Counted from the first letter of the stretch, positions 21,314 to 29,723 are shown. The stretch: 42,285 nt of DNA from Planctomycetales bacterium (GCA_027449865.1 DAIDKV010000192.1:1-42285); one strand, 5' to 3'. Program-made: numbers and translations. Notes: generated by a model from the letters alone, not told the origin.

Positions 21314-21718
21314 TCAACGATCTTTCTTCCGACCCTTGTCACCCATCATCTGATCGAGAACCGAGCGGACTTCCTTCGCCTGGTCCGGGTCCAGCGGGTG
21401 CGACTTCAACAGGTGGAGCACCAGCAAGCCCGGTTCCCCCTGGTAAAGCTTGTCGACCAGACTGTTCACTCGCTTCTGCCGGACCTCCTGCCCGGAGATC
21501 ACCGGCTTGTACACGAACGCCAGCTCACGACGGTCGCTGGTCACCAGCCCCTTGGATTCGAGGCGATCGAGCAGCGTCGCCACGGTGGCATAGGACCATT
21601 GTCGTCCGGCGGCGCGCAGAGTCTCCAGCGCCTCGCGGACTGTAGCCTGGCCGAGGTCCCACAGGACCTTCAGCACATCGAGTTCCGAATCGGGTATGGT
21701 AGGAGGACGTTTGGCCAT
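21314..21718 (-). CDS. BlaI/MecI/CopY-family transcriptional repressor
   Basis: A 134-residue winged-helix repressor. Residues 1-80 match the Penicillinase_R domain: IPDSELDVLKVLWDLGQATVREALETL, then the recognition helix region WSYATVATLLDRLESKGLV, and the wing with FVYKPVIS. The rest is the helical dimerisation part (LVDKLYQGEPGLLVLHLLKS), ending in a basic tail. Classical BlaI proteins are inactivated by a BlaR1/MecR1 (M56) sensor protease, but no such gene lies next to this one, so its signal is unknown. A promoter with an operator-like dyad, resembling the ACAnnTGT cores this family binds, lies about 150 nt upstream at 21869-21897, suggesting autoregulation. The nearby GAP1-N2 gene diverges from it and might share control. 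Confidence 0.92.
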   Translation of the reverse strand: MAKRPPTIPDSELDVLKVLWDLGQATVREALETLRAAGRQWSYATVATLLDRLESKGLVTSDRRELAFVYKPVISGQEVRQKRVNSLVDKLYQGEPGLLVLHLLKSHPLDPDQAKEVRSVLDQMMGDKGRKKDR

Positions 21719-22034: not shown

Positions 22035-24356
22035 ATGAGCCAGGAGTTGCATTATACCTCGGCCCCGCGCGGGCTACGGCCGGGCAGTCGGGGCTTCGGG
22101 ATGGTGGCGGCCACCGTCGGGCTCTCCGATTCGATGGCCGACCGGCTGGAGGCGCTGAGTGCCTACCGGTCCGTTTATCCACCCGGCGATCCCTCCGAGC
22201 GGCTCAACCCGATCGCGTATCATCACGTCCGACTCTCGATCGGCGGCATGATTCACGATGTTCTCTCGCGAATCGGCCCGGCCGGTCTGGATTACTCGGG
22301 GCGTCCTAACAAGTATGCCCATCACGTGGTTCTCGATCCCGACGAGCATCCCGAGGCAGGTCCGGCCTGGCTGCTGGCGCGGCCGGAATTTCTTTGCGAG
22401 ACCTGGGAGGGAGAGCCCCGGATCTTTCCGAACGGAGTGGGCGTTCCCCGGGGCGACCGCCCGCCCGATGTCGCCCGACGCTGGGAGGCGCAGGTCGGCG
22501 ACGCGGGATGGGCGGGTGTGCTCGCGGGCTCTTTTCTGGACGACCCCCGACGGCCGGTCTTCCTGGTCTTCCGTCCGGGGATCGAGCTACTCCCGCTTTT
22601 CGTCGAGGCGATCGCGCTTCTGCCCGTCGCGCGGAGGTGGGACGTCGAGTTCACCACCTATCTGACGAGTCTGCCACCCGGTGTCTCGTGCCACTGGCGG
22701 GGCGTGCTGGACGGCTCGCCCGAGCTGAAGGCCGCTCGCGGACTCCCCAACGCGATGATCCTCGACCTCGTTCGGCCGCCCGGCCAGGCGCCAGGTGGCC
22801 GACTCGTCCACCTGGCCCGGACTGGTCAGATGCCCGAGGTCGAGGAGTCGGCCGCCTGGGTCAACGGCTTCACCCCAACCCGCGCGATCACTGCTGGCCC
22901 GCCGCCGAGGCTCCGTCCGACCTCAACGGCCGCGAGCCACGAAAGCCTGCCTGATCTGGCTGCTCAGCTTGCCGGGGAGGTCTCGCTCCTTGGCGGCGAG
23001 TCGATTCGCCGGCCCCGCGCTCGCCGATGGAGCGCCCCCCTCGCGATCACGGCTACCCTGCTGGTGATTGGAGGGGTCGTCGCGCTCTCGGTCTCGACCG
23101 ACCTCCGGCGCGGGATGGGGCTGGAGAAACCCGGCTCTGTTGTTGAGAAGGTGGCTCGGCCGGCGTCTCCACCCGCGCCGCTCGCACCCCGTCCGGTCGC
23201 GCCGATCGAGATTGTCACGCCGCCGACACCGAGCGTTCCCGAAGATACTGGGCTTTCCGCCGCGGTCGTCGTCAACCCGGCGCCCCGGGGTCCGGCCGCT
23301 CCGATTTTGCTTGCCTTCGCGCCACCCGAGGTCCCGCGGTCGACGCTCGGCAATCCGACGCGCCAGGACCGGACGATTCCGCTCCTGGAAGAGACCACTG
23401 ACCGGATTGAGATTCGCAACGGCCCTGGCTTCGTCCTCTCACCAGTCTCTGGCGTGGCGCATGCCTTCGATGTCGCCACGAGGACGGGGAGCGGTCTGGG
23501 TGGCGGCGTTGCGATCGCCCGGCTCACTCGCGACGACCCGCGCGGTTGGCGGTTCGAGTGGACCCCCGCGGCACGAGCCCGGTCGAGCCCGGTTGAAGCT
23601 TTGAAGGACGCTCTCCTCGTATTCGAGAGTCGCGAGGGCCGCTCGATTCGGGTCCTTCTCCGCGGGATCCCGATCGACCGACCGGATCCGCTTGAAGTCT
23701 GGAAGGACCAGCGCATCCTGACAGAACGGCTGGATGCGCGGACAAAATCGGTCAACTGGGCTGGAGATCCCGACCCCGTAGAGGGGAGCCGGTGGAAGCT
23801 CCGTATCCTTCGCTGGAAGCTGACGATCACGCAGGTCGCCCCCCCGAAGGATCGCACCCCGATTGAGCAGGTGATCGAGCCAGCTCCGGTCAACGGCGAG
23901 CCAGCCGCGAACGATGGTCCATCGATGGAGGTGGATCTTGTCCCGGGCGAGGTCGTCGTGAAGATCGCCATCAATCCCGACCGACCCGGGCGGATCGACG
24001 TTCGGATCGATCCCGACGCCCAGCGGATCTCGGTCGGTCGCGAGGATCGGGACACCCAATGGCAGAATTTCACCGCCCGAACGCCCTCGAAGGACGACGG
24101 TTCGAGCCAGGATCCACTTGCCTTCCGCCAGGCAGAGCTACATAGGATGCTCGAGGCGAAAAAGCCGAATCCGGACGCGATCAAAACGCTGCGTAAAGAG
24201 CTGACGGCTCTCCATCGGATCACCGGCATCCGACGGACCGAAACCTTGCTGGCCGGGCGGTCGAGGGCCATTCTCAGTGCGGTGATCGGGCTGGATATCG
24301 ACGGAATCGGTATCCTGGAGGTTCTGAGGACCGGAGAATTCGCGCGCTCTCGGTGA
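22035..24356 (+). CDS. GAP1-N2 domain protein with a transmembrane segment (GTPase-associated conflict-system family)
   Basis: A 773-residue protein. Residues 1-275 match, from memory, the GAP1-N2 domain (GTPase-associated protein 1, N-terminal type 2): opening SQELHYTSAPRGLRPGSRGFG, then NPIAYHHVRLSIGG, LDYSGRPNKYAHHVVLD and GPAWLLARPEF. Such proteins were described in predicted NTP-dependent biological conflict systems, usually beside TRAFAC GTPases. A single membrane helix at about 334-353 is followed by a Pro-rich linker and a roughly 350-residue domain of beta character (FVLSPVSGVAHAFDVATRTG...), ending in a helical stretch. I do not see the usual GAP1-M or GAP1-C regions, and no GTPase gene lies nearby. 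The next gene starts 16 nt after the stop, behind GAGGGG, so the two are surely co-transcribed. Function is unknown; a membrane-tethered adaptor is an inference. Confidence 0.8.
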   Translation: MSQELHYTSAPRGLRPGSRGFGMVAATVGLSDSMADRLEALSAYRSVYPPGDPSERLNPIAYHHVRLSIGGMIHDVLSRIGPAGLDYSGRPNKYAHHVVLDPDEHPEAGPAWLLARPEFLCETWEGEPRIFPNGVGVPRGDRPPDVARRWEAQVGDAGWAGVLAGSFLDDPRRPVFLVFRPGIELLPLFVEAIALLPVARRWDVEFTTYLTSLPPGVSCHWRGVLDGSPELKAARGLPNAMILDLVRPPGQAPGGRLVHLARTGQMPEVEESAAWVNGFTPTRAITAGPPPRLRPTSTAASHESLPDLAAQLAGEVSLLGGESIRRPRARRWSAPLAITATLLVIGGVVALSVSTDLRRGMGLEKPGSVVEKVARPASPPAPLAPRPVAPIEIVTPPTPSVPEDTGLSAAVVVNPAPRGPAAPILLAFAPPEVPRSTLGNPTRQDRTIPLLEETTDRIEIRNGPGFVLSPVSGVAHAFDVATRTGSGLGGGVAIARLTRDDPRGWRFEWTPAARARSSPVEALKDALLVFESREGRSIRVLLRGIPIDRPDPLEVWKDQRILTERLDARTKSVNWAGDPDPVEGSRWKLRILRWKLTITQVAPPKDRTPIEQVIEPAPVNGEPAANDGPSMEVDLVPGEVVVKIAINPDRPGRIDVRIDPDAQRISVGREDRDTQWQNFTARTPSKDDGSSQDPLAFRQAELHRMLEAKKPNPDAIKTLRKELTALHRITGIRRTETLLAGRSRAILSAVIGLDIDGIGILEVLRTGEFARSR

Positions 24357-24372
24357 GGGGTCGACCCGGACG

Positions 24373-27288
24373 ATGGCGGACTATCATCAGATTGTCGAGC
24401 AGATCCGGATGGCGCTCCACGCGGGCGACCCGGGCGTTAATGGTCGCCTGGCGGGGCTTGCCTCGGCCTATGCCGACGCCTGTTCCGAGGCAGCCCTCCG
24501 GCTCGCCCGATGTCATCGCCTGCTCCAGCAGGGACTTCGTTCCGAGGCCATTCAGCTTGCCGAAGACGAGCCGAAACTGCTCGACTTGCTCACCGTCCTT
24601 GACTTTCCCGAGCGCGCCGAGTGGGACGACCTCATCCAGATGCGCGGCCTGGCCGTGGCGCCCCGGATCTCGCTCGAGCCAGCCCGGCTGCTCAACGAGG
24701 CGTATGCCGAGGAAGACCCACTCCAGGATCTGTTGCGTCGACACCGTCGGCTGGCGCTCCAGCGATCGCCGCTTCGCGTCCGGATCTCGGTCCTTCGCGA
24801 GCTGGCGAAGCACGACCCGGGCAATCCCATCTGGACGGAAGACCTGCGCTCCTTCGAGAAGTTCCGGCTCCTCCAGATCCAGGACGAGGCGACGGAAGGC
24901 CTGCGCCGTCAGGACCCGGAATGGACGGCCCGGCTGGTCGCCGAGGTCGAGCAGCCGATCTGGACCGAACCGCCGCCAACGACTCTGGTTCAGTCGCTCC
25001 GGAAACTCGACGCTCAGGTGCGGGGCGATCGGGCGCGCGAGGCACTCGGCGAAGCCGCTGCCCGGCTTGACGAGGCCGTCAACTCCGGTGACCCGATCCG
25101 AGGCCGACTCGCCCGTCGAGAGTGGTCAAGGCTGGTCGCCGCCGCCTCGGTCCCCGGCGATGATCCGATCCTCGCCCGCGCCCGGCCGGCTCTCGACTGG
25201 CTCGACCACCAGGACCAGATCGACCACGAAAACCGGGAGCATGCCGAGGCCATCGCCCGCCTCGTCCGCGCCCTGGATTACCCCGGGCGCATCCTCCCCG
25301 AAGAGCTGGAGCGGCTCGCTCACGATGTCCAGTCGCACGGCGAGGGACTTCCCGAAAACCTCCGGCTGCGCTACATCACCCGGCTTCGCGAGGCCGAATC
25401 ACATCAATCGAGGCGACGTCACCTGATCGCTGCCGGCTCCGCCGCCGCGGTCCTGTTCGTCGGCTTCCTTATTTACATGGCCGCGCACGCTCAGTCGCGG
25501 GCCAACGCGGCCGACCGCGCGGCGCAGTCGATCAGCGATCTGGTCGAACTGGGCGAGATCGAGCAGGCAGCCGCGCAGGTGAAGCGGCTGGAATCGGCGG
25601 ATCCCGACCTCCTCCAGTATCCGGCGCTGGTTGAGGTGCGTCAGCGGGTCGAGGCCTCGCAGTCGAAGGAAGCCGACCGAGCGCTGGCCTTCGACAAGGC
25701 GATGAGAGAGGCTCAGTCGGCTCCGATCACGGGCGAGCCCCCGAGGGCGCTGGAGACGGCCCGGTCGCTCGCCCGGATCGACACGGAAAAGGCGCAGGTG
25801 GATGACCTGGTGAAGCGACGGGCCGCCACTCTCGCCGCGGAGGCCGACCGTCGCGAGAAAGAGCTGGCGCCCCGGCTCGATGCGATCGCCGCGGCCATCG
25901 ATCAGGTCGAGGCTCGCTCGAAATCCGACGGGGGCGTCCCGGCCGAGCTCTCCGAGTCGATGGCCGGAGCCCGGCAATCGATCGCCGAGCTGACTCCTGC
26001 CGCGACCTCGGCAGGCGACGTCGTCCGCAACCGACTGCGTGGTCTCTCCGATCGCCTTGACGCGGTGGGTGCCCGGATGGAGGGCCGCGCCCGGCGTGGC
26101 CGGCTGGAATCGGCCCTCACCGCGGCTGTCACGGGTGCCCCGGTTTTTGACGCTGCCCGATTCGCCTCGGCCATGCAGGAATACGCCCGCGCTTTCCCCG
26201 ACGCGCCCCGCGCCCGCGCGTTTGGCGAGACCCTCCGCGACCAGGCTGTCTGGGACGCCCTGGCCGAGTGGGGCCGTCGCTCGGCCGGATGGAGTCCCGG
26301 CCGCCCCGCGATCCCGTCGAAGGAGGCCATGGTTCGGGCCGAGCAGTGTCGGCAGTACCTGACCCAGTTCCCGGCCTCGCCCGACGCCGCGCGGATCGAC
26401 GCTTACCGGGCCGAGATGGAGGCCATGGGTCATCGATCGGCCGACGGGGCCCTCGGCAATCTTCAGAAGCTGATGACCGACCTCCTGGTCGACCACCTCT
26501 GGATGGTGACGGTTCGACCGCCGGCCTCAAGCGGTCCGCATCGCTACTACGTCTTCGAGGAACCGAAAGCCGGCGCCCGGTCACTCCGATACCTCGCCGG
26601 CTACGACGGCCAGGAGAAGACGTACAACGTCGTCCCCGACTGGGTCGAGAAAATCGAGCTCTCGCCCCAGACTCACGTCTCGCAGAAGTTCAAGCCGATC
26701 CTTTCTCAGGACGCCGCCCGAATCGACTGGGAATCCACCGTGCTCGACCTGCTCGGCCAGGTCCGCAACCAGACCGCGATGGACCCGATCTTGAAGGTGG
26801 CGCTGCTTCGCAAGATTCTTGAGCTGGGCTTCGAGGGGAGCGAACCGCTCCGCCGCGTCCTGGGCAGTCTCCGCGAGCAAATCGACCGTGCCGAGATCGA
26901 TATCAACGTCCCCTGGATGGACCCCGAGAGCCGGGAGGCCGACCAGGTTCGACCCCGGGCGCGGGCGTTTCTCCAGAAGTGGACCGATCCGTCGGACCTT
27001 CGACGCGAGGTGATCGCGCGCCGGGCCGAGACGGAGCGCGTGCTAACCGCTCGTCCCCGGGCGATCGGGTGGCTCGCCCGAGAGCCGCGGGGCTGGGTCG
27101 TTCGGACGGGCGAATCGATTCCCCGGCAAGGCTCGCTCCGAATCGCGGTCCCCTCGGCGGCCGACAAGGCGGCCTGGAAGAACGTCGGCACGATCAAGGA
27201 TGGTCAACCGCGTCTTGAAGTTCGCGAGGATCCCGCGCTGGCCGAGGGCCGGCCGGTCTTCGTTGTCGAGGACGCCGTCTCTTCCTGA
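24373..27288 (+). CDS. very large alpha-helical protein with one membrane helix, partner of the GAP1-N2 protein
   Basis: A 971-residue protein not recognised by family. The N-terminal 345 residues are helical and repetitive in style (MADYHQIVEQIRMALHAGD, LRLARCHRLLQQGLRSEAIQLAEDE), resembling a TPR-like or alpha-solenoid fold rich in Arg, Leu and Glu. One membrane helix lies at about 350-370 (HLIAAGSAAAVLFVGFLIYMAAHA). After it come coiled-coil-like helices (IEQAAAQVKRLESADPDLL; KELAPRLDAIAAAIDQVEARS) to about 580, then mixed segments, and from about 700 a more globular part (LLVDHLWMVTVRPPASSGPHRYYVFEEPKAG). The final 150 residues contain a helical bundle and a beta-like end. No NTPase motif, protease site or signal peptide is visible. 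It lies 16 nt from the GAP1-N2 gene with matching single-span topology, which suggests the two form a complex. Confidence 0.85.
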   Translation: MADYHQIVEQIRMALHAGDPGVNGRLAGLASAYADACSEAALRLARCHRLLQQGLRSEAIQLAEDEPKLLDLLTVLDFPERAEWDDLIQMRGLAVAPRISLEPARLLNEAYAEEDPLQDLLRRHRRLALQRSPLRVRISVLRELAKHDPGNPIWTEDLRSFEKFRLLQIQDEATEGLRRQDPEWTARLVAEVEQPIWTEPPPTTLVQSLRKLDAQVRGDRAREALGEAAARLDEAVNSGDPIRGRLARREWSRLVAAASVPGDDPILARARPALDWLDHQDQIDHENREHAEAIARLVRALDYPGRILPEELERLAHDVQSHGEGLPENLRLRYITRLREAESHQSRRRHLIAAGSAAAVLFVGFLIYMAAHAQSRANAADRAAQSISDLVELGEIEQAAAQVKRLESADPDLLQYPALVEVRQRVEASQSKEADRALAFDKAMREAQSAPITGEPPRALETARSLARIDTEKAQVDDLVKRRAATLAAEADRREKELAPRLDAIAAAIDQVEARSKSDGGVPAELSESMAGARQSIAELTPAATSAGDVVRNRLRGLSDRLDAVGARMEGRARRGRLESALTAAVTGAPVFDAARFASAMQEYARAFPDAPRARAFGETLRDQAVWDALAEWGRRSAGWSPGRPAIPSKEAMVRAEQCRQYLTQFPASPDAARIDAYRAEMEAMGHRSADGALGNLQKLMTDLLVDHLWMVTVRPPASSGPHRYYVFEEPKAGARSLRYLAGYDGQEKTYNVVPDWVEKIELSPQTHVSQKFKPILSQDAARIDWESTVLDLLGQVRNQTAMDPILKVALLRKILELGFEGSEPLRRVLGSLREQIDRAEIDINVPWMDPESREADQVRPRARAFLQKWTDPSDLRREVIARRAETERVLTARPRAIGWLAREPRGWVVRTGESIPRQGSLRIAVPSAADKAAWKNVGTIKDGQPRLEVREDPALAEGRPVFVVEDAVSS

Positions 27289-27331
27289 GAACTCCTCTTC
27301 ACTTCCGATTTCAGCAAGGAGCCCCGATCCC

Positions 27332-28144
27332 ATGCCGGGCGACGAGACGTCGGAAACCTGGTATGTCCGGACGCGAGGACGGATCCTCGGCCCGCTGACC
27401 TGGTCGCAGCTTCGGGCCCTGCGCGATCGTGGCCAGCTTGCGCGTTTCGACCAGCTTTCGCGAGACCGCCAGGATTGGATATCCGCCGATCGGCTGGAGG
27501 CACTCTTCCCGACTGCTGGATCGTCAGGCGCGTTTGTCTCGGGATTCGAACCCTCGCCCAGCTGCCCGAGTCCCCGGCGCGAGCCCGCACCGGATTCGGA
27601 TGCCAATCCCAATATTTTCATGATGCTCGATCCGGAAGAAGAGCCATCGCAAGGGGTTGCATCGGCCATGCCGGCGGCCGACGCATCCAACGATTGGTAT
27701 TATGCTGAGGGCGGAACGCCGCAAGGCCCGGTCGGGCTCTCGGTGCTGGCCCGCCTGGCGAGCGAGGGACGGATCGGGCCAGCGACGCTCCACTGGCGGA
27801 GCGGTCTGGACCAGTGGACCCCCGGCGCCGACATACGCGAACTGAGCCGTCTCTGGCCCTCAGCGAGAAAATCGCCGGCCCCATCGACGCCCGAAAAGCC
27901 GGTCGCTCCGACCGTCCCGGTCGCCCCGCTCGCGATGATTAGTCTGATCGCGAACCTGCTTTGTGGGATTGGAAACGTCGCCTCGGTGATAGTCGGCGCG
28001 CTCGCCCTCCGCCAGATCGCCCGGTCCGGAGGAGAACTCTCGGGACGCCGGCACGCGATCGCCGGTATGGTCCTGGGGGTGGTCGGGCTCCTGATCTGCG
28101 TTATGTTCTATTTTTTGATCGCGAGCCGACCGCCCGTGCCGTAA
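27332..28144 (+). CDS. tandem GYF_2 domain protein with DUF4190 membrane tail
   Basis: A 270-residue protein starting at ATG 27332 behind AAGGAG. It has two GYF_2 modules: residues about 8-58 (WYVRTRGRILGPLTWSQLRAL...LEALFP) and about 125-175 (WYYAEGGTPQGPVGLSVLARLASEGRIGPATLHWRSGLDQW), each with the W-Y-x(n)-G-P pattern thought to bind proline-rich or other short peptides. They are joined by a disordered Pro/Ser/Asp linker. The C-terminal 80 residues are a DUF4190-type double membrane helix (LAMISLIANLLCGIGNVASVIVGALALRQIARSGG...IAGMVLGVVGLLICVMFYF). The GYF modules should face the cytoplasm as docking sites. It lies 43 nt after the large helical protein, and the Pro-rich linker of the GAP1-N2 protein is a plausible partner (inference). 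The gene is followed by a GC palindrome at 28210-28223. Confidence 0.88.
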   Translation: MPGDETSETWYVRTRGRILGPLTWSQLRALRDRGQLARFDQLSRDRQDWISADRLEALFPTAGSSGAFVSGFEPSPSCPSPRREPAPDSDANPNIFMMLDPEEEPSQGVASAMPAADASNDWYYAEGGTPQGPVGLSVLARLASEGRIGPATLHWRSGLDQWTPGADIRELSRLWPSARKSPAPSTPEKPVAPTVPVAPLAMISLIANLLCGIGNVASVIVGALALRQIARSGGELSGRRHAIAGMVLGVVGLLICVMFYFLIASRPPVP

Positions 28145-28466
28145 ATGCGCCGGAAACCTAACTTCGCGACTCAAGATCCCGCCGCTTCCAGCGAATACCG
28201 ATGGTGACCGGGGCGTACGCCCCTTGACCTTTCCGAGAATGACTTGCCATCATGCTCCGGTGGTCGCTCGGGGTCAGGCCAGGGCAATCCCGAATCATCC
28301 ACCCCGAGTCTGGCGGCCTCGTCCCCGAATGGCGCCTTTTCCCTGGAAAAGGGCTGCGGGGTATACTCCGAAAGCTCTCGGGGATAGACTGCATGGAATA
28401 ACCCTCGAAATCGTCGAGGATCACATCATCGGATCGACGGACGGCGAGTCGGACCGGAGACGGGGC
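28145..28466. other. 322-nt interval with palindromes and promoter-like elements before the M48 gene
   Basis: No gene is seen. It contains GGGGCGTACGCCCC (28210-28223), a perfect palindrome 65 nt after the GYF gene; CCTTTTCC-CT-GGAAAAGG (28335-28352), an 8-bp dyad; and the -10-like hexamers TATACT (28362-28367, preceded by GGGG) and TAGACT (28385-28390). The dyad sits where the -35 region of the first hexamer would be, so a regulated promoter for the M48 protease is plausible. Confidence 0.4.
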
Positions 28467-29723
28467 ATGGAACGAGCTGAGGCCGGCACGTTGCGAACCG
28501 CGCTCTGCCCCGATTGTGAATCGGAGGCGGAAGGGAGGGCGTTCGGCATCGCGGCCAGCCGCGAGGAGCGTTCGGCGTGTCCCCGATGCGGAGCGCCCGT
28601 GGATGGCGGAGAGCGTCGGATTTCTTTGGGTGTTTCGGCTCCGCAAGGTTCATCCGCGGTGCAGACGATGGCGGTGGGCGGGCTGGGGCTGGCCTGGCGG
28701 AACCTGGTCCTCCGGGTGATCGAGCGGATGTACTGGTGTGGGACATGCCTTCTTTCGCTAGGGCTTCTTGCCTGCGGGGGATGTGTTCCGGTTGTCCGGG
28801 CCTGGCTCCGGAATCAGATCAACGACTGGCCGGAAGTGGTTGCGAGCCTTGGCGGGCTCTGGTTCCGGGTGGAGACGCTTGACCCGGACAGTGACCTCGG
28901 CCCGGTTCTGGGGCGAGTCGATGCGCCGCAATTGTTCGCGACCATTGATGCCGTGGGTCGTCGCCTGGGTGTGAAGCCGCCGGGACAGGTCCGGCTGACG
29001 TATCTACCATGCTGTGGCGTGGTGGCATGGGGGCGATCTCGGGCCCTGATCATCGGGCTGCCGCTGTTCCGGGTGCTGACCCAGTGCGAACTGCGGGCGG
29101 TGATCGCGCACGAGCTGGCGCATCTGGCACGCGGTGACGCAACCCGGGCGGCGCGCTCGGCGAGGTTTGTCGAGGCGATGGAGCTGGCCTTCGAGCGCGA
29201 GAGCCATCGACTTCGAGGTCCGCTCGGAGCCTGGGCGCGGTTCTGCCTCGACGAGTGCTCCCGGCTGATCGAGCCAGTCGCCCGGTCGCAGGAGACGCGT
29301 GCCGATCGGTTCTCGGCGCTGGTTGCCGGGGGGAGCGCGGCCTCTTCGGCGCTGGTGAAGGTGGCGGTGGTGCAACCGCTCTTTCGCGAATTACTCGAAG
29401 CCTACGACCCATCCGAAGCCGACGGTCAGAACCTTTACGCGTTCTTTCGGACGTTCTGGTATCGCCTTCCCGCGGATGTGCATTCAGCGATGCGCCTGAG
29501 CGTCCTGGCCCGCCGCGAGCATCACACCGACCCCGCGCATCCCCCCCTGCCCGACCGCGTCGCCGCCTTGCAGTCGTATCCCGACCGGGCCGTCCACAAC
29601 GGCGATCTGCAACCGGCGACGACGTTCCTCGGCGATCCTGAGATTTTCGAGCAGATGCTACATAATCGCCTCTTCGCGTTGCCATCGGTCGAGCCGAGCG
29701 TCTTCCATCGGGCTTGCTCGTGA
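28467..29723 (+). CDS. zinc-ribbon M48-family membrane metalloprotease
   Basis: A 418-residue protein from ATG 28467 (GGAG upstream; the frame extends to 28224 without coding character). The N-terminus has a zinc ribbon, CPDC...CPRC, separated by 22 residues. One or two membrane helices lie near 90-115 (YWCGTCLLSLGLLACGGCVPVV). The protease core has RALIIGLPLFRVLTQCELRAVIAHELAHLARGD with the zinc-binding HEXXH at 215-219; the third ligand is probably the Glu of SQETRADRFSAL (the E-x-x-x-D motif of M48). The C-terminal part has a substrate-groove-like helical region. M48 proteases such as HtpX degrade damaged membrane proteins. The N-terminal zinc ribbon is a frequent planctomycete addition and may bind partner proteins. 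It is on the same strand as the GAP1-N2 group but probably has its own promoter. Confidence 0.9.
   Translation: MERAEAGTLRTALCPDCESEAEGRAFGIAASREERSACPRCGAPVDGGERRISLGVSAPQGSSAVQTMAVGGLGLAWRNLVLRVIERMYWCGTCLLSLGLLACGGCVPVVRAWLRNQINDWPEVVASLGGLWFRVETLDPDSDLGPVLGRVDAPQLFATIDAVGRRLGVKPPGQVRLTYLPCCGVVAWGRSRALIIGLPLFRVLTQCELRAVIAHELAHLARGDATRAARSARFVEAMELAFERESHRLRGPLGAWARFCLDECSRLIEPVARSQETRADRFSALVAGGSAASSALVKVAVVQPLFRELLEAYDPSEADGQNLYAFFRTFWYRLPADVHSAMRLSVLARREHHTDPAHPPLPDRVAALQSYPDRAVHNGDLQPATTFLGDPEIFEQMLHNRLFALPSVEPSVFHRACS

Follow-up and report, generated by a model that had tools for sequence, protein, structure and literature searches.

The window, as we call the whole 42,285-nucleotide (nt) stretch from a Planctomycetales bacterium (GCA_027449865.1 DAIDKV010000192.1:1-42285) studied here, carries on its plus strand three successive genes that encode a GAP1-N2 protein (GAP1, gene 1), a long helical protein which we name P2 (gene 2) and a tandem GYF protein (gene 3). 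We think, with a probability of roughly 0.7, that these genes encode the membrane components of a DO-GTPase/GAP1-N2 system of planctomycetes, and that in this genus the GTPase gene of the system has been relocated to another part of the genome. What we observe directly are the domains of these proteins, a near-perfect co-occurrence of GTPase, GAP1 and P2, their fixed order GTPase-GAP1-P2 throughout the class, and an intact GTPase gene on another contig. What looks like an orphan locus would then be a split operon, with a cognate GTPase that may be encoded elsewhere.

A GTPase gene away from GAP1

The initial annotation had seen here a planctomycete system of GAP1-N2 and GYF membrane proteins without a visible GTPase. 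The system is indeed strongly conserved, and no DO-GTPase gene lies beside GAP1 within the window, but it is not GTPase-free: absence of the GTPase can be rejected for the genome (G000), where a divergent DO-GTPase2 orthologue is encoded on contig C162. This gene was missed by a plain Pfam search for DO-GTPase2 and recovered with an orthologue as query; single orthologues score from 18.9 to 32.6 bits in Pfam, on either side of the cut-off of 27, and a profile search of the PDB with the GTPase returned nothing significant. The C162 protein is 76% identical to the GTPase that adjoins GAP1 in genome G014 and has intact motifs (GSPASGKS, DNAGE, SKLD, CPHC/CPHC), the core residues of which are invariant in 15 orthologues.

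It had been proposed to look for a GTPase in other genomes, and most relatives do have a DO-GTPase gene directly upstream of GAP1. Weak DO-GTPase2 matches were found at this position in several genera when 45 genomes of the order were searched, and these upstream proteins, of 430 to 480 amino acids (aa), possess two zinc-ribbon motifs and a P-loop. Unlinked orthologues, 76 to 80% identical, are located on G000:C162, G016:C1174, G017:C205 and G019:C292 (genome and contig; G016 to G019 are relatives in the window's genus), with GAP1 on another contig in each case. Within the class sample, the GTPase is kept with intact motifs in every member of the genus that has GAP1 and P2. The unlinking cannot be the mis-assembly of one genome, because the MgtE-BlaI-GAP1 synteny of the window recurs in the independent assembly G018.

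The class sample consists of 397 Planctomycetia genomes, which were searched with profiles of the three proteins. P2 is present in 97 of them (a count that excludes two genomes with a weak P2), the GTPase in 96, GAP1 in 94 and all three in 87, with pairwise Fisher p values of 2e-67 to 1e-82 that ignore shared ancestry. If a GTPase gene is called linked when it lies within 1 kb of GAP1 on the same strand, and P2 when it lies within 4 kb of GAP1, the GTPase is linked to 94 of the 110 GAP1 matches and stands upstream in all 94, and P2 is downstream of GAP1 in 80 of 80 linked cases. The GAP1 matches outside this order are mostly located at contig ends, or are fragments or second GAP1 copies; the remainder come from the window's genus and from genome G258, to which clear unlinking of the GTPase is limited. 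The distance matrices of P2 and GTPase are correlated (r 0.94; 0 of 10000 permutations), the unlinked GTPases being paired with the P2 of their own genome, and these GTPases rank their relatives as the corresponding P2 does. Judged from these sequence comparisons, the C162 gene is the cognate, divergent DO-GTPase2 of the window's GAP1 and P2. Since GAP1-N2 loci without an adjacent GTPase can have one elsewhere, calls of "incomplete" neighbourhoods need a genome-wide check.

In G258, the GTPase and GAP1-P2 genes are on separate contigs (C108, C342; L076, L077), apparently by an independent separation, and the neighbours of the GTPase are kinase-HEAT and vWA-like genes. Another arrangement, GAP1-GTPase-GAP1, with a GAP1 gene on each side of a single GTPase gene, is present on G069:C1, G110:C20, G122:C1 and G236:C1.

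The membrane proteins and how they may work

GAP1 (22035 to 24356, plus strand) was analysed by Pfam and own-genome searches, hydropathy and an alignment of 13 orthologues. The GAP1-N2 domain already suspected in this protein is borne out at aa 1-120 (E 2e-27; 96.3 bits for a cut-off of 24), and GAP1-M, previously only suggested as a search, follows at aa 150-245 (E 5.8e-15; 55.8 bits, cut-off 24). PF20013 occurs only once in the genome. There is one clear membrane helix, as expected, at aa 336-354 (23040 to 23096); the strongly positive sequence RRPRARRW precedes it, which places the N-terminus inside, so that GAP1 is predicted from hydropathy and charge to be a single-span, N-in protein with its C-terminal half outside the cytoplasm. 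The distinct beta-type domain announced for GAP1 could not be confirmed: the C-terminal half is variable and poorly conserved among the 13 orthologues, and the structure model has an AlphaFold confidence (pLDDT) of 30. GAP1-C was looked for, and Pfam gives no third domain beyond GAP1-N2 and GAP1-M; a PDB profile search with GAP1 had zero matches.

P2 (24373 to 27288, plus strand; 971 aa) begins 16 nt after GAP1 and is, as first described, a one-span helical protein, with its single membrane helix at aa 351-369 by hydropathy and a mostly helical prediction elsewhere. No Pfam family matches it above cut-off, and a PDB profile search gave coiled-coil-type matches only; a BrxC match (E 2e-4; 19.5 bits against 400) was dismissed as it overlaps the coiled coil. 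The predicted layout is a cytosolic helical domain at aa 1-350, with the coiled coil and the C-terminal part outside. A short form of about 375 aa, ending at the membrane helix, exists in the class, and for this reason we take aa 1-372 as the P2 core. Alignment, hydropathy and class-wide gene order lead us to the view that P2, newly recognised here, is a core subunit of the system throughout the class, as far as sequence can tell.

The GYF gene (27332 to 28144, plus strand) encodes two GYF_2 domains and a DUF4190 membrane region, and Pfam agrees here with the initial annotation. Its open frame extends back to 27200, which falls inside P2, and the ATG at 27332 is therefore the likely start. Among the relatives examined, P2 is almost always followed by a gene for GYF_2 domains with a tail of DUF4190, TM2, Trypsin_2 or RDD. 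The trypsin version shows His, Asp and Ser within the motifs where they are expected, and has one membrane helix between the GYF domains and the protease, a layout that predicts cytosolic GYF domains and an outside protease. The GYF domains are thus probably on the same, cytosolic side as the linker between GAP1-M and the membrane helix of GAP1, which they had been proposed to read. This linker is Pro-rich (10 to 27% Pro in the window and its orthologues), but the classical GYF ligand, PPG followed by a hydrophobic residue, is not conserved among the 13 orthologues and PPG is absent from the window's linker, which leaves the proposal neither supported nor excluded. In Myxococcus, GltJ combines a zinc ribbon with a GYF domain, and the window's GYF protein matches the NCBIfam GltJ equivalog with E 8e-8 and 31.8 bits, missing its cut-off of 450.

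These data are compatible with a mechanism in which a cytosolic GTPase, with its zinc ribbons and P-loop, would dock in the cytosol, both on GAP1-N2 and GAP1-M and on the helical domain of P2. An event in the envelope may be sensed by the halves of GAP1 and P2 that lie outside, and would alter the nucleotide state of the GTPase or its assembly. The membrane protein with tandem GYF domains could then act as adaptor or output, with an exchangeable tail: a module of two transmembrane helices, an RDD domain or, as seen in relatives, a trypsin-like protease that faces outward. A set of MotA/TolQ-type channel genes, which the window's genome does not have, may also belong to the output in many relatives.

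Several points, besides the shared ancestry that the p values ignore, weigh against our reading and should be acknowledged. Contact between the proteins and dependence on GTP are inferred. The AlphaFold models of GAP1 and of P2 (confidence 50 for the latter) contain no usable fold, and a PDB fold search with P2 found nothing at E 1e-3 or better, its fold being unrecognised. The genome encodes two further DO-GTPase2-type genes (C161:52141-52716 and C31:31272-31844), so that one of these might conceivably be the partner instead. Finally, P2 is followed in G019 not by a GYF gene but by one for a kinase-like, TPR-like protein (L053:8251-11469 on G019:C127, protein-kinase-like by its translation, not scanned).

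Known systems and a motor-type gene set in relatives

According to the main text of Kaur, Burroughs, Iyer and Aravind 2020 (eLife e52696, PMC7159879), GAP1-N2/DO-GTPase loci of planctomycetes encode GYF domains in pairs, joined to trypsin or to a transmembrane-rich region. The window resembles these systems by its GAP1-N2, GAP1-M and membrane helix and by the zinc-ribbon DO-GTPase upstream in relatives, and resembles the planctomycete GYF subtype by its two GYF_2 domains with DUF4190 (trypsin, TM2 or RDD in relatives). It differs in that the GTPase is unlinked in its genus, in that FNIII repeats, usual there, have no counterpart (no FN3 match by Pfam in the window's proteins), and in having the 971-aa helical P2 as a constant third component, which was not found in the passages of PMC7159879 consulted. 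Since P2 stands where FNIII would be and FNIII is missing, we class the window's system as a variant and not as a standard member. Compared with that main text, supplement aside, three elements are new: the role of P2 as core subunit, the relocation of the GTPase gene, and a trio of genes further downstream in relatives; MotA, TolQ and ExbB are not mentioned there.

The trio, which about half of the systems with full-length P2 possess, often extends the operon in genomes other than the window's close relatives; it encodes a MotA_ExbB protein and two proteins with a single span, about 272 and 304 aa long. The MotA_ExbB Pfam matches, two genes after P2, reach E 3e-11 (43.4 and 42.9 bits, cut-off 22.9), and the MotA-like protein has four hydrophobic helices. 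The two single-span families share homology (hhalign 97.9%). In both, a short basic N-terminus leads into the only membrane helix, the beginning of which bears an invariant Asp. With a profile of the 304-aa protein (A8-type) we obtained 51 strong matches, distributed over 48 genomes; P2 is present in 41 of these genomes, and the A8-type gene lies 2 to 5 kb downstream of P2 in 34 of 34 linked cases.

One could imagine from this that the ancestral function was that of a GTPase-gated, proton-driven envelope machine, and that the planctomycete GAP1-N2/DO-GTPase/GYF system is the control unit of such a machine, powered by the proton-motive force, and not a suicide-type conflict system. Its hypothetical parts would be a GTPase switch, single-span GAP1 and P2 sensors, a GYF adaptor, a MotA-like channel and two Asp-bearing axle proteins; the window's lineage would have discarded the channel, dispersed the GTPase and kept only switch and adaptor. 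This would extend our reading of the locus, not exclude it, with a logic perhaps akin to that of MglA-GltJ-AglRQS or of Zorya-type motors, and we regard it as a tentative possibility. It is favoured by the position of the trio, by the membrane Asp common to both single-span families and, in the window itself, by the GltJ match, far below cut-off as it is. In Myxococcus, MglA has been reported to act on AglR and GltJ (PMC12288465), and AglRQS consists of one TolQ-like and two TolR-like proteins (PMC3169522). The system of Myxococcus xanthus (PMC3169522, PMC9389320, PMC12288465) thus has in common with ours a small GTPase switch and a GYF-type membrane protein, and the trio, one MotA/TolQ-family protein and two single-span Asp proteins, recalls AglR, AglQ and AglS. 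Similarly, the four-helix MotA-like protein and its one-helix partners with invariant Asp resemble the 5:2 motors MotAB, ExbBD and TolQR, and the Asp-in-helix layout is that of MotB/TolR and AglQ/AglS.

There are also differences. The GTPase belongs to another family than MglA, and homology of the two Asp proteins to ExbD was not supported by profile-profile comparison (an alignment of planctomycete ExbD gave an hhalign probability of 0.4%), so that "proton-driven 5:2 machine" is a hypothesis and not a membership. The channel genes are those of relatives: the window's genome and nearly all of its family are without the trio, the genome having zero A8-type profile matches and just a generic MotA/ExbB match, within its family the MotA-like gene is kept only in G026 and G034, and the trio is missing in 23 of the 25 genomes with short-P2 systems. 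The gliding apparatus of Myxococcus may serve as an instructive analogy only. That DO-GTPase systems are linked in many planctomycetes to a channel of the MotA/TolQ type would make the proposed conflict role testable against a mechanical or transport role. In G033, of the same family as the window's genome, the MotA-like gene survives as a remnant interrupted by a stop codon, downstream of P2 and a GYF_2-RDD gene (G033:C100:7998-8276).

Other readings of the locus and its flanking genes

The separation of the GTPase might also be taken to indicate that GAP1 and P2 have been freed in this genus as a GTPase-independent sensing module, the GTPase being repurposed. It is true that the GTPase is unlinked in all four genus members that can be checked (4/4), and that G258 has a similar separation. 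However, the GTPase is retained with intact motifs alongside GAP1 and P2 and co-varies with P2, and its neighbours on C162, a sulfate permease and PriA, between which it also sits in G017, suggest no new partner. We consider this scenario unlikely, and prefer the membrane part of a system with a relocated GTPase.

The next gene (28224 to 29723, plus strand) encodes an M48 metalloprotease with Cys motifs. The protease assignment holds (Peptidase_M48, E 1.2e-11), whereas the zinc ribbon attributed to it consists of a Cys pattern that matches DZR only weakly (E 0.065). The initial annotation had included this gene in a four-gene unit, and a self-contained conflict system of that kind could appeal to the same strand and close spacing of all four genes in the window. 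Most relatives' genomes have M48 homologues, but in other genera these are on different contigs or megabases away from GAP1, never near it; the fixed part of the order is GAP1-P2, with GYF as the usual next gene and M48 not conserved there. The protease is for this reason a bystander, rejected as a component, and with the GTPase retained in trans a four-gene system is very improbable.

On the other side of GAP1, and diverging from it, a BlaI/MecI-type (Penicillinase_R) repressor is encoded at 21314 to 21718 on the minus strand. It marks the MgtE-BlaI-GAP1 synteny that the genus shares, and a neighbour gene is 99% identical in an independent assembly (L058). We do not claim it as a member of the system; immediately next to it we recognised no partner of the BlaR1 type. 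None of the five proteins matched a known defence model in PADLOC. Elsewhere in the order, short GAP1-N2 frames of about 220 to 290 aa adjoin DO-GTPase2 genes of 300 to 350 aa (L033-L048; examples of this short class are G037:C1:4289477, G023:C52 and G012:C2:2694388), and a DO-GTPase2 type of about 800 aa is found in nearly every genome.

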